In this document: piece after piece, positions 2,723 through 10,500 of the stretch
Position numbering within the stretch: the first letter of the stretch is position 1
Layout: each line of letters begins with the position of its first letter
Assembly (NCBI GenBank): GCA_017474845.1
Contig: JAFVGS010000031.1
Location: 1-33,462, forward strand
Reading direction: 5' to 3'
DNA: 33,462 bases
DNA from: Prevotella sp.
GTDB lineage: Bacteria > Bacteroidota > Bacteroidia > Bacteroidales > Bacteroidaceae
Notes under the pieces: model-generated
The model's database searches: none
What the model was told of the DNA's origin: nothing
What the model saw: the letters and a program-made list of their open reading frames with translations, nothing else
Translations under genes and position numbers: made by a program

Positions 2723-4264
2723 TTACTGAAGCTTTTTAAGAAGGCTTGCGATGCTCACCTTGTCCTCGATGATGGCGTTCAGTTCGCTGATAGCCACGCG
2801 CTCCTGCTCCATCGTGTCGCGGAAACGGAGGGTGACGCAACCATCATTGAGGGTATCGTGGTCGACGGTGACGCAGTACGGCGTACCGATGGCGTCCTGA
2901 CGACGATAGCGCTTGCCTATAGAGTCCTTCTCGTCATACTGGCAGTTGAAGTGGAACTTCAGCTGATCGATAATCTCGCGGGCCTTCTCGGGCAGACCGT
3001 CCTTCTTCACCAGCGGCATCACGGCGCACTTCACAGGAGCCAAGGCTGCGGGCAACTTCAAGACCACACGGGTCTCGCCGTTCTCCAGTTTCTCCTCCTC
3101 GAAGGCGTGGCACATGATGCTCAGGAACATACGGTCGACACCGATTGACGTCTCGATGACGTACGGGGTATAGCTCTCGTTGGTCTGTGGATCGAAGTAT
3201 TTGATGCTCTTACCTGAGTATTTCTCATGCTGCGACAAGTCGAAGTTCGTACGAGAGTGGATACCCTCCACCTCCTTGAAGCCGAACGGCATCTTGAACT
3301 CGATATCGGTAGCGGCGTTGGCATAGTGAGCCAGCTTGTCGTGGTCGTGGAAACGGTAGTTCTCAGCGCCGAAGCCTAAGGCCTGGTGCCACTTCATACG
3401 CGTCTCCTTCCATTTCGGGAACCACTCCAACTCTGTGCCTGGCTGTACGAAGAACTGCATCTCCATCTGCTCGAACTCCCTCATACGGAAGATGAACTGA
3501 CGGGCGACGATCTCATTACGGAAAGCCTTACCGATCTGGGCGATACCGAAGGGGATCTTCATGCGGCCCGTCTTCTGCACGTTCAGGTAGTTCACGAAGA
3601 TACCCTGAGCCGTCTCAGGACGCAGGTAGATCTTCATCGAAGCATCTGCGCTGGCACCCATCTCCGTAGAGAACATCAGGTTGAACTGACGCACGTCCGT
3701 CCAGTTCCTGGTTCCGCTGATGGGGCAGACAATCTCCTCGTCGAGGATAATCTGCTTCAGTTCGTCGAGATCCGGGCCCTGCATGGCAGCAGCATAACGG
3801 GCATGGAGGGCGTCACGCTTCTCCTTCGTCTCCTTCACACGCTCCGAAGTCTCTAAATACTTCGCCTCGTCGAAGCTGTCGCCGAAGCGCTTGCGAGCCT
3901 TCTCCACTTCCTTCTGGATCTTCTCGTCGTACTTGGCAATCTGGTCCTCGATGAGCACATCGGCACGATAGCGCTTCTTCGAGTCGCGGTTATCGATCAG
4001 GGGATCGTTGAAGGCATCCACGTGTCCGCTGGCCTTCCATATCGTCGGGTGCATGAAGATGGCCGAGTCGATACCCACGATGTTCTCGTGCAGCATCGTC
4101 ATCGCCTTCCACCAGTACTGCTTGATATTATTCTTCAACTCCACGCCGTTCTGACCGTAGTCATACACAGCGCCTAAACCATCGTAAATCTCACTTGAAG
4201 GGAACACGAAACCATACTCCTTACAGTGACTCACGATCTTCTTAAATACATCTTCTTGTGCCAT
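2723..4264 (-). CDS. glyS: Glycyl-tRNA synthetase (dimeric class II type)
   Basis: This 513-residue protein charges tRNA-Gly with glycine in the cytoplasm. It is the single-chain alpha2 type, of the usual length. The N-terminus (IVSHCKEYGFVFPSSEIYDGLGAVYDYGQNGVELKNNIK) is diagnostic. Class II motif 2 is seen around FRNEIVARQFIFRMREFEQMEMQ and motif 3 around GVDRMFLSIM. The C-terminal anticodon-binding domain starts near LKLPAALAPVKCAVMPLV. The ATG at 4264 lies about 30 bp downstream of a near-consensus promoter (4295-4327), so it leads the run glyS-FKBP-ATPase-DUF4435. Confidence 0.97.
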   Translation of the reverse strand: MAQEDVFKKIVSHCKEYGFVFPSSEIYDGLGAVYDYGQNGVELKNNIKQYWWKAMTMLHENIVGIDSAIFMHPTIWKASGHVDAFNDPLIDNRDSKKRYRADVLIEDQIAKYDEKIQKEVEKARKRFGDSFDEAKYLETSERVKETKEKRDALHARYAAAMQGPDLDELKQIILDEEIVCPISGTRNWTDVRQFNLMFSTEMGASADASMKIYLRPETAQGIFVNYLNVQKTGRMKIPFGIAQIGKAFRNEIVARQFIFRMREFEQMEMQFFVQPGTELEWFPKWKETRMKWHQALGFGAENYRFHDHDKLAHYANAATDIEFKMPFGFKEVEGIHSRTNFDLSQHEKYSGKSIKYFDPQTNESYTPYVIETSIGVDRMFLSIMCHAFEEEKLENGETRVVLKLPAALAPVKCAVMPLVKKDGLPEKAREIIDQLKFHFNCQYDEKDSIGKRYRRQDAIGTPYCVTVDHDTLNDGCVTLRFRDTMEQERVAISELNAIIEDKVSIASLLKKLQ

Positions 4265-4294: not shown

Positions 4295-4327
4295 GCAAAG
4301 TTAGTGAAAATATGTCGAAACACCAAA
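4295..4327 (-). promoter_or_regulatory. Promoter of glyS
   Basis: Reading the minus strand, TTTG at 4327-4324 is followed after exactly 20 bases by TAACTTTGC at 4303-4295. This is the Bacteroidetes primary-sigma pattern (-33 TTTG, -7 TAnnTTTG). The leader before the glyS ATG is about 25 bases. Confidence 0.85.
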
Positions 4328-4333
4328 CCAAAT

Positions 4334-4361
4334 AACAATTAACAATTGACATTTAACATTT
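4334..4361. repeat. Heptad repeat upstream of the glyS promoter
   Basis: Four 7-bp units of the form NACAWTT: AACAATT, AACAATT, GACATTT, AACATTT. They lie just upstream of the glyS -33 box. The sequence belongs to the same 7-bp-period class seen at other gene borders in the window. Confidence 0.7.
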
Positions 4362-4425
4362 TATCCCATTGTTTCAACAGCCTTTCAAGGCTTGGGAGTC
4401 ATGGAAAAGATAGGGGAAAGCGTTC

Positions 4426-4513
4426 GTCCGCCCAGCCCGGACGGTGAGTCCGCGCAGGGAGGACTGTGCGTCCGGGCTGGGCGGACTCATCGTCCAGACG
4501 GCCTGGACGATGA
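4426..4513. repeat. Four-unit 22-bp array GTCC-N9-GGAC-N5 forming nested hairpins
   Basis: Four exact units start at 4426, 4448, 4470 and 4492. Each is GTCC, nine variable bases, GGAC, five variable bases. The N9 cores are GCCCAGCCC, GCGCAGGGA, GGGCTGGGC and AGACGGCCT; the N5 spacers are GGTGA, TGTGC, TCATC and GATGA. Core 1 is the exact reverse complement of core 3, so 4426-4443 and 4469-4486 form an 18-bp perfect stem with unit 2 at its tip. Spacers 3 and 4 are also complementary, so 4486-4497 and 4503-4514 form a perfect 12-bp stem around a 5-base loop. A decayed fifth unit may follow (CAGGGAGGA at 4519-4527 repeats 4455-4463). The period of 22 is not a multiple of three, which argues against coding. 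The array is GC-rich in an A/T-rich intergenic region between glyS and the tRNA. Function unknown. Confidence 0.9.
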
Positions 4514-4590
4514 GCGAACAGGGAGGAAAGTCTCGGATTAGGCCGTTATCCATCCGCCTCGTAATAGGCCAAAGCCGTAGATAAAACGCC

Positions 4591-4615
4591 GAATCCTCGC
4601 TATTGGCGAGGATTC
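4591..4615 (-). terminator. Terminator of the tRNA transcript
   Basis: A 9-bp perfect stem (GAATCCTCG/CGAGGATTC) with a 7-base loop starts two bases after the tRNA 3' end. On the minus strand it is followed by GGCGTTTTATC, a short U tract, consistent with an intrinsic terminator. Confidence 0.75.
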
Positions 4616-4616
4616 T

Positions 4617-4694
4617 TGGTAGGGACACCCGGGCTCGAACCGGGGACCTCTGCAATGTGACTGCAGCGCTCTAAACCAACTGGGCTATGCCCCT
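4617..4694 (-). tRNA. tRNA-Val (anticodon CAC), atypical
   Basis: The minus strand folds as a cloverleaf: acceptor AGGGGCA with TGTCCCT (one G-U), D arm with GG in the loop, anticodon stem CTGCA/TGCAG, T arm CCCGG/CCGGG with TTCGAGC loop, discriminator A73 and an encoded CCA (4619-4617). The 7-base anticodon loop GTCACAT puts T at position 33 and CAC at 34-36, so it should read the valine codon GUG. A73 agrees with valine identity. Odd points: the D stem has a C12-A23 mismatch, and loop bases 32 and 38 are G and T rather than the usual pyrimidine and A. It is a single-gene transcript with promoter at 4787-4819 and terminator at 4591-4615. I am surer that it is a tRNA than that it is fully active. 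Confidence 0.88.
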
Positions 4695-7585: not shown

Positions 7586-10500
7586 TTAGTTAAAGAAGTA
7601 CTTGATACCTACAGAAGCATACCAGCACTGACCGAGCGAGTTGTAGGGCTTCCACTTTTCGGTGTTGCCATCGATAGTCTTCGGGGTAGAGAAGGTTGCA
7701 AAGCCATCGGCATCGACGCCTTCATACTTGATGATGCGGGAGTACTGCACGCTGTTGCTGGGAGCAGTGCTGTAGTCGAGGTTGGCAATCTTGGCCACGC
7801 CCCACTCGTTGTTGAAGAAGTTCAGCACGTTCTTCATGTCAAAGCTCAGCTGCAGGACATGCTTGGTCTTGCCCAGGTCGAGTTTGAAGTCATGCTTGTA
7901 GCTGAAGTCAATGCGATGAACCCAAGGAGAATAGACGGCATAAGCCTCTGCATATTCACCCTGACGGCTGCTGAGGTAGTCGTCGCTGTGTACGAAGGCC
8001 ATGAAGCGGTCGCGGTCGTCGTCACTGACAAAGCGGAAGTCACGGTTTGCGACCTGCTGGTCTGTGGGCACATAGACGACATCATACTGATAGCCGTCAC
8101 CGTTCATGTCGTTGCTCACCAGATAAGAGGTGTTGTAGCCACCGCGCCAGGTCTCATAGATCAGGCTGTAGTGGTTGCCGCTACGGTCATGGATAGTGGC
8201 GTTGGCCACGATACGGTCAGGCGTGACATACTGCGAGTTGTGCAGTCCCACGTAGTTCGGACCCTGCTCGCAGGGGATGTATGTGAATGCCGAAGAGGCA
8301 TCAGAACCTGGCATACCAGTCTTCTCCTTGCTGACAGTGTGTGTATAGGCAGCCATCAAGCTGATCCACTCTGCGGGCTGTGCATTGAGGGTGGCGTTGA
8401 AAGTCCATCCATAGCCCTTCGACGTATTGTCGAGCACGAAGGCGTTAGGCATCTGCACCAACTTGCCGGCCTTGTTGGTGTACATATACTTGAAGTCCTG
8501 ATAGAGGGCGCGGTTGTCAGCTCCGTTCAGACGTGCGAAGCCACCAACATCCTTAATGCTCCAGTCTGAGATACAGACGGCGTTGATGGTCTTGTTGAAG
8601 ATAGCCTCAACGGTAGCGGTGAACGGGAACGACGTCGGAATCTGGTAGTCGACAGCAACGGAGGTCTTCCATACCTGCGGCATCTTGAAGTCGGGGTTCA
8701 CGGCGTTGATGGCAGAACCAGCTTCACCATCCTCGGGCTTGATAGTCGAAGGACCGAGGTTATGATCGATGATGTAATCGCGGAGGGTGTTACCCCACAT
8801 GAGGTTTCCAGCAAACTGCGACATGTCGGCCTGCTTACCACTGTTCTTACCCGTTGCATTCCAGATACCCTTGTACTGTACCATGTTGGAGTTGGTGGGC
8901 ATATTGGTGAAGAACACGAGGGGCAGACGTCCAGAGAAGAGACCTGAACCGCCACGCACCTTCAGCGACTTGTCGCCGAACACATCCCATGTGAAGCCCA
9001 CACGCGGAGAGAAGGTGAAACTGGAGTCAGGCCACTTACCTGTATCGATATGCTGGCCATTGTAGTCAAGGTCATAGATAGCCTTGTTGGTCATCAGATC
9101 GTCGTTGTTGAAGAACAGTCCGTCTACACGGAGGCCGTAGGTCAACTTCAGGTTGTCAAGGATGTTCCAGTCATCCTGCAGGTAAATGCCGAGCTTGTTG
9201 AACCTCACACGTGCTGCGGGATCGGTCTCACCGTTATAACCGTAAGTAAGAGCCACGACCTCAGGATTGCTGTTGAAGAGGAGTGCGGGATCCAGCACAC
9301 CGTTCACCCACATATCGTCGGTAGCATTGAAGCGGTAGTAACCTGTACCGTTACGCATATACATATTATCGGCCATCTGGTGCTCGAAGCTGATACCTGC
9401 GGTGAATTTGTGGTTCTCCATATAATAGGTAGCATCGTCCTTGATGTTCCAGATCGTGTTGTGAACGGCGTTGTTATAGGTGAACAGCTCATAGCCGAGG
9501 GCCATGTAGTTGTTGTTGTCTTTCGTAATGTCGATATGGGGGAACATAGCCGACTCCGAGTCACGGATATCGTCGAGCTTCGAGTAGGTGAACAGCAGCT
9601 GGTTCGACAGATTGTCTGTGAAACGGCTGTTCAGGTCGAAGGTGAACGAGTGTACCACGTTGTCCATGGCATACATCGAGTTGGCGAACGACATAGACGA
9701 CTTCGACATACGTGCGTCTGCCATACGCGGGCCACCGTCCATCGAAGAGGCGTTGGGCGAACTCCAGTTGCGGTTCTTCGTATAGTTGTAGCGCAGGGCG
9801 AGATGATGCCTATCGGTGATATTCCAGTCCAGACGGGCCAGGATCTTGTAGTTGCTCTTGTCTGCAGGGAAGCTGGTATAGCTGCCGGTGTTATAGCCAT
9901 ACTTGCTGGCTACATAGTCAGAAACAGCCTGAAGGTCGGCCTTCGTCGTGCGTGAGATATAGTTCTCGGGATCTGCGGGATTGTCCTCATCGGCACCCTG
10001 CCAGCGGTTCACCACACTCGGGATCTGCACCATCTCACCGTTGACGAAGAAGAACAGCTTGTCCTTGATGATCGGGCCACCGAGGGTGAAGCCGTAGGTG
10101 GTCGTACGGTCTTTCTCGCGGGCACCGTTGATCTGGTTGTGATAGACGGCGTCGCCCTGCATGTTCTCGTTCTGATGATAGATGTAAGCCGTACCTCTGA
10201 AGGTATTGGTACCCGACTTTGTGATGGCGTTCACACCACCACCGATGAAGTTCGTCTGACGGACATCGTAGGGCGATACCACCACCTGGAGTTCCTCGAT
10301 GGCATCAATAGAGATAGGATTGCCACCACCAGGCAGACCTGCAGAGAGGCCGAAGTTGTTATTGAAGTTGGCACCGTCGACTGTGAAGTTAGCCGTACGA
10401 CCGTCGGCACCTGCAAAGCTCATGCCGTTACCACCGTAAGGAGAGAGGCGGGTGAAGTCGGTGATACTGCGCGACACTGTCGGCATGTTGGTAATCTGGG

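Follow-up and report, generated by a model that had tools for sequence, protein, structure and literature searches.

Phased arrays of 22-bp palindromic units with changing arm sequences in Prevotella

Palindromic repeats dispersed in genomes are as a rule identified from their sequence. Rickettsia palindromic elements (RPEs), for instance, are single palindromes, longer than the units described here and with a conserved sequence. In operator arrays, such as the ArgR boxes, palindromes are spaced by whole helical turns, and a CRISPR array consists of identical repeats of about 25-40 bp separated by unique spacers. As for REP/BIME sequences, the accessible text of PMC3733652 distinguishes GTAG- and CGTC-tagged families, the CGTC types being present in Bacteroidota among other phyla. 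In the literature searched, little of it from subscription journals and including the accessible text of PMC3733652 and PMC5771137, no arrays of the kind reported below are described.

We looked at a stretch of 33,462 nucleotides from a Prevotella sp. genome (contig JAFVGS010000031.1), called here the window. A preliminary description had pointed to four units with exactly placed GTCC and GGAC and a period of 22 bp, and this was confirmed: positions 4426-4508 hold four GTCC-N9-GGAC units at exactly 22 bp, with 5-base gaps (Table 1). Constant ends with variable cores proved to be the general pattern, but in this copy the nine inner bases are not entirely free: units 1 and 3 are exact reverse complements of each other and unit 4 is self-complementary. 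The inverted repeat of unit 4 reaches further than the unit itself, over 4486-4514 (CTCATCGTCCAG/CTGGACGATGAG), and the outer ends GTTCG and CGAAC pair in the predicted fold of either strand. Scored as three units with palindrome centres every 11 bp, the array reached 33 of 36; the highest value among 40 block-shuffles of the window was 28, a score equalled or exceeded nowhere else in the window. Relatives do not retain the C that precedes GTCC in three of the four units and usually have A there; compared with their 6+6-base constant part, the window copy is a somewhat worn member of its family.

Table 1. Positions of the array units and of neighbouring features in the window.
Feature	Position	Strand	Description or basis
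Unit 1	4426..4442	.	GTCC-N9-GGAC; exact reverse complement of unit 3
Unit 2	4448..4464	.	GTCC-N9-GGAC
Unit 3	4470..4486	.	GTCC-N9-GGAC; exact reverse complement of unit 1
Unit 4	4492..4508	.	GTCC-N9-GGAC, self-complementary
Outer inverted ends	4422..4519	.	GTTCG 4422-4426 and CGAAC 4515-4519, flanking all four units
glyS-like gene (presumed glycyl-tRNA synthetase)	2723..4264	-	ORF; neighbour
Putative promoter for glyS	4296..4327	-	TAACTTTG 4296-4303 and TTTG 4324-4327
10-bp inverted repeat followed by GGCGTTTTAT	4591..4615	-	Sequence; role putative
tRNA-Val (CAC)	4617..4694	-	ARAGORN and Rfam; neighbour, outside the element

The array had been described as lying beside a tRNA. A tRNA-Val does adjoin it, and the inverted repeat followed by GGCGTTTTAT is likely the terminator of this tRNA, but an association looks incidental, copies of the array being present at many other places. 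The glyS-like gene presumably encodes glycyl-tRNA synthetase, in agreement with the preliminary description, and its product is 94-97% identical to those in the closest named Prevotella/Xylanibacter records. Because the putative promoter, which we take from the consensus to be of the Bacteroidota type, sits between the array and glyS, the array is probably outside the glyS mRNA. The tRNA-Val (CAC) is upstream of glyS in two of nine close named relatives (L084 and L087, at about 0.7 and 2.1 kb). The glyS neighbourhood was checked in all nine and none has an array near glyS; a site tied to the tRNA or to glyS was thus not borne out. An RNase P-like RNA, suggested by 'GGAGGAAAGTC' beside the array, was also discarded, the RNase P RNA of this genome being at G000:C35. 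An AT-rich 7-bp tandem repeat (CAATTAA, 4329-4358) was noticed upstream of glyS, and similar AATTATC-type runs precede glyS in L082, L083, and L085. On the minus strand at 170-1974, two genes next to each other have matches to AriB (E 2.9e-73) and AriA (E 4.7e-56) of the PARIS anti-phage system.

The preliminary description had raised the possibilities that related genomes would hold no second instance, or that the cores would be ordinary diverged copies lacking the preserved spacing. Neither turned out to be the case. A DNA search of 150 same-genus genomes gave relatives in two others, G136 and G072, and the six arrays examined next, that of the window included, all had exactly four units at an exact 22-bp spacing. 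A sequence-only model made from these six arrays matched in at least 97 of 398 same-genus genomes, among them at least 23 of the 175 with a completeness of 90% or more and a contamination of 5% or less; both counts are lower bounds, owing to stricter filters and to 10 scored candidates per genome. With a second model (25 arrays), the window array was the sole match in its own genome, G000, which is 59% complete, and a sample of 344 order-wide genomes gave matches in G000 only. This taxonomic limit rests on the AGTCCG-type model and on arm-blind scans of the DNA fetched, most of the genomes compared being drafts and that of the window incomplete.

In the inspected loci, the full unit reads AGTYCG-N7-CGRACT-N3, with local variants, and palindrome centres follow one another every 11 bp. 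The constant part is therefore 6+6 bases with a 7-base core and a 3-base spacer, not 4+4 with N9 and N5 as had been proposed. Copies are found at many other intergenic places as well as inside genes. Among 84 distinct arrays, a set biased by the model towards the AGTCCG family, 40 have three units, 30 four, 10 two, three five, and one seven. The seven-unit array (L014 1458-1608, in G173) has similar units and apparently arose by recent tandem expansion. Four loci of G182 hold four- or five-unit arrays; the arm variant TGTCCG...CGGACA was read in one of them, L034, and L176, L177, and L178 score alike. The intergenic arrays L006, L008, and L010 of G072 have partly common flanks, of CCCCCGAAAG type on the left and of TGTCGGAGRCG type on the right, so that the array may sit there in a larger repeated module.

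We then scanned for 6-bp inverted arms that recur with a set period, whatever the arm sequence. At a period of 22, this arm-blind scan found nine arrays in 1.38 Mb of named loci, which had been chosen for glyS and not for arrays, seven in 400 kb of G266, 15 in 292 kb of G072, and 74 in small loci mostly picked for their arrays. The other periods from 17 to 30 gave 0-4, and shuffled sequence gave none. In 1.2 Mb of G266, at a threshold of 30, a half-period of 11 gave 28 arrays while half-periods of 9, 10, 12, and 13 gave 4, 1, 2, and 0; G266 shuffles at half-periods 10-12 gave no arrays. The scan demands exact spacing, so it misses worn arrays and the strictness of the spacing is partly built in, but the comparison of periods is unaffected. 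A strict spacing of about two helical turns, as had been suggested, is borne out. The arms are another matter. Those of G266 fall, by our own grouping, into several families (AGTCCG, TGGGAC/TGGGAA, CAACTT, and singles), L085 (Prevotella ruminicola KHT3) has TTCCCA arms, and L134 (Hallella colorans) has arms of GCGATT type. What is constant is the geometry; the arm sequence differs between families and genomes, and GTCC/GGAC is no universal constant. When 104 arrays (76 AGTCCG-like, 28 other) were set in register, spacers differed even within one array (column identity 0.31-0.58). In the DNA fetched from outside the Prevotella lineage, only weak cases were met: L110 and L132 with 31 of 36, and L116, a plain tandem repeat. 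One named locus of 21.5 kb, L090, holds three arm types together, namely a GTAATA array of nearly perfect units (9741-9807), a GCTACC array, and a weaker TCTTTC array.

Within the same model-biased set of 84, 35 arrays are inside open frames that measure 450 nt or more and extend at least 90 nt to either side, a few of those from the GC-rich G072 being doubtful. They are read in frame, giving peptides such as VRTxRTxSPxxxDxESxxxGL. Since 22 leaves a remainder of 1 when divided by 3, each of three successive units is read in a frame of its own, and 66 bp keep the reading frame. Ten of 13 candidate host proteins were scanned against Pfam and all ten matched a family with an E value of 0.001 or better (L018 under the curated cut-off), including ABC-F-type ATPase, CobB-like, GH92, GH106, sulfatase, and MMPL proteins and others. 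In the unselected 1.2 Mb of G266, 27 of the 28 arrays are outside long open frames.

Three genes were compared between species. In a gene with an MG2 domain, segments from seven loci, one from each, share a length of 186 nt and the phase of their dyad centres (L227 and L228, which had no anchors, were left out). The arms are of AGTCCG type in five segments, ACTTTA in L223, and GTTTCC/TGGAAA in L225. In the linker of the ABC-F gene, six of 20 homologues, the best of 40 genomes, have arrays scoring 32-35 of 36, with arms AGTCCG, AGTCCC/TGGGAC, CTTCCG, TGGGAA (two), and GTTTTC. The phase is common to five of the six, one of them after subtraction of a 30-nt upstream insertion, and L061 is out of phase with the others; L069 was left out. 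For the THUMP-like (PG_1098-type) gene, 31 homologues were examined: L185, the query, and those of the 29 genomes that ranked next among 136 with a match. Of these, 13 have an array with a score of 31-36 out of 36, and L281 has a weak one with 27. Phase modulo 11 was measured for 12 of the strong arrays and is identical in 11, one of which was corrected for a one-codon upstream insertion. The exception is L277; L285 was left out of this measurement and is put in phase by the scan of the homologues. The arms read at this one site are AGTCCG, CTTCCG, ATTCCC, AGTCCC, GTTTCC, GTTTGC, and GAGAAA. On a tree of 30 of the 31 rows, built with the linker left out, rooted at the midpoint, and with L281 counted as having no array, a strongly supported branch separates 16 rows, 13 of which have arrays, from 14 that have none. 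Three changes of presence are required on it, and nine of arm type among array bearers (seven labels, so a floor of six); with all eight labels, 12 changes are required, a number as low being reached in 64 of 200 shuffles. Site and phase therefore persist at these genes while the arm word does not. Array-free homologues of the ABC-F and THUMP-like genes have linkers of different length and sequence, and no clean pair of filled and empty sites, nor any target duplication, of the sort expected of a MITE, was found among the homologues of either gene; for lack of such a pair, insertion and copying are steps that we infer.

Arms are partly shared between loci of one genome. For the strong arrays at the three genes, less the G327 copy (L025), same-genome pairs had a mean identity of 0.62 (n = 7; four at 0.71-0.82 and three at 0.36-0.43), compared with 0.50 for the same gene in different genomes (108 pairs) and 0.49 when neither was shared (185 pairs; permutation p 0.016). 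In three of the seven comparisons (G081, G082, and G083), the arms differ at two genes. Cores of AGTCCG-type arrays, G072 left out, agreed at 0.72 within genomes (46 pairs) versus 0.515 between them (1665 pairs). In G037, a genome-specific 22-bp unit occurs in two coding arrays of an unselected 300 kb and in the arrays at both studied genes, that is at four loci, and four other arrays from the same 300-kb stretches are without it. Similar arrays are present at three places of G266, two of which (L049 and L056) are nearly identical, each behind a copy of an upstream region of about 300 bp, and may represent one larger duplication. Also in G266, other intergenic repeats of AAACGCCGAGTTGATAGT type adjoin arrays (L054 1993-2092). 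This sharing points to a copying between loci of one genome that would be incomplete and kept within families.

The arrays were then set against the known systems. Like REP/BIME sequences as presented in the accessible text of PMC3733652, they are short palindromes in many copies, mostly intergenic with some within genes. Unlike them, the 104 arrays in register are without a terminal GTAG or CGTC tag tetranucleotide, and they are tandem units placed head to tail at a fixed 22 bp, with an arm sequence that is not fixed. As in RPEs, palindromes are read in frame within protein genes, but here a phased array is concerned whose sequence is replaced at one gene site while its geometry stays. The constant parts of 6+6 bases within a 22-bp period set the arrays apart from CRISPR, a system that the preliminary description had likewise set aside. 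REP, RPE, and CRISPR thus each fail at least one tested defining feature. Minisatellites (VNTRs) share with the arrays their tandem units and the fresh homogenisation of some of them, but not the strongly kept arms beside diverging cores and spacers, the usual number of three or four units, or the 22-bp period whatever the sequence. In arrangement, the arrays resemble operator arrays such as the ArgR boxes: dyads are phased two helical turns apart, half-sites are conserved, and cores are free. The Prevotella arrays differ from these in being also found inside genes, in half-sites that change with family and genome, and in a binder that is putative.

Selection for structure or for an array-binding protein had been proposed; the protein option gains from what follows, and for structure, taken as folded RNA, there is no support. 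That the arrays act as RNA (a small RNA, a terminator, or an array of hairpins in mRNA) is in our opinion very improbable. In its favour, the predicted folds of both strands of the window array are much stronger than those of shuffled sequence (z -6.6 and -8.2), and two features look terminator-like, the GGCTTTTT at the end of several intergenic copies in G266 and the A and T tracts that flank several copies in G072. However, the strong folding of the two strands was set aside because it is expected of any palindromic DNA; moreover, the predicted pairing varies from copy to copy, and in the window the tRNA alone reaches an Rfam gathering score. In 29 coding arrays (the 35 less six set aside, five from the GC-rich G072 and L003), the arm pairs that were non-standard when read on the sense strand were G.T in 19 cases, A.C in 21, and other in 22, showing no preference for G.U. 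Nor is there stem covariation: across 74 arrays, agreement between hairpin partners is no higher than for any pair of arms in the array (z -0.6 within the unit and -0.3 across the spacer), arms of the same orientation are more alike than those of opposite orientation (z +4.7), and core similarity is 0.56 inside an array compared with 0.36 between arrays. The last two observations point to ordinary tandem duplication. At third codon positions of 22 orthologous coding array pairs, agreement was 229 of 247 in arms (a figure inflated by the grouping of the pairs by arm type), 88 of 204 in cores and spacers, and 4994 of 9886 in the rest of the gene. Cores at or below the third-position level, next to fixed arms, show the arms to be kept as DNA. 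The likeness of same-orientation arms would also suit a purely mutational concerted evolution, in which arms would stay alike through slippage by 22-bp units and through template switches from one inverted arm to another, with neither bound protein nor function. The nearly identical units of some arrays (L231, L283, and L285) fit this explanation, as do window units 1 and 3, whose exact reverse complementarity is what template switching would give. Yet template switching predicts that hairpin partners are the most alike, contrary to what the 74 arrays show, and it leaves unexplained both the fixed 11-bp spacing of centres outside genes (27 of the 28 G266 arrays) and the arm families common to distant loci. 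We regard it as improbable.

More weight is due to selfish mobile palindromes in the style of REP or RPE, several families of which would coexist, a transposase reading the arms as hairpin or duplex and moving arrays of 66-88 bp, which would persist between genes and in protein linkers. Dispersal in many copies, arrays read in frame within long reading frames, cores alike within genomes, the genome-specific unit at four G037 loci, and the similar arrays at different places of G266, two of the three maybe from one duplication, are all in its favour. It is nevertheless unlikely, though well worth keeping in mind. Random insertion would not give a site and phase that persist across species through at least nine arm changes, and copying followed by neutral decay predicts something other than arms that outlast cores. 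No empty site or target duplication came to light in the ABC-F linker or the THUMP-like gene. Besides, the Y1 transposase domain of RAYT proteins (PF01797), counted as present or not in each genome, was found in 11 of 14 array-bearing genomes and was absent from G266 (99% complete, with 28 arrays in 1.2 Mb), G226, and G205; a RAYT-driven REP system is thus not required.

The window array is one member of a dispersed family, met so far in Prevotella-type genomes. The explanation we prefer, tentatively, is that the arrays are phased sites for a putative protein on double-stranded DNA, evolving in concert. Usually three or four 19-bp palindromes at a period of 22 bp, in which like half-sites alternate in orientation, place dyad centres every 11 bp on one face of the double helix. 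Each half-site would be read as duplex DNA by a putative dimeric protein, which may exist as one or several paralogues of different specificities; as arms differ between loci of one genome (G266; G081, G082, and G083), one protein cannot serve all arrays. Cooperative binding of the dimer along the phased sites would fix the arms and let cores and spacers drift. A new arm type would take over an array in two ways: one 22-bp unit would spread by tandem turnover, and arrays elsewhere in the genome would overwrite the old one in register through copying or gene conversion. The coexistence of freshly homogenised arrays (L231, L283, and L285) with arrays of diverged cores suggests a cycle, in which unit turnover or copying would renew an array whose cores then drift with the arms held. 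The arrays are most likely, in our view, dispersed protein-binding sites, whose cellular purpose may be chromosome organisation, tethering, or plain selfish spread by means of a host protein. A broader proposal, possible in our view but held with some doubt, is that of an element class defined by geometry, whose position would persist at particular sites, also within genes, and whose word would be rewritten in all half-sites at once and tend to be common to several loci of a genome. It would form a genome-wide address system co-evolving with a putative family of array-binding or array-rewriting proteins.

Because the word is replaceable and the spacing persists, repeat finders that work from sequence would list such arrays as curiosities without relation to each other, or as linkers that are hypervariable. 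Should some protein read them, they would represent a chromosome-wide DNA-binding system of a new kind, in a genus that is abundant in the gut and rumen. Should nothing read them, they would offer a natural experiment on concerted evolution in which nine or more arm replacements have taken place at a single gene site. In both cases, the species assembled here allow a direct test of the question.
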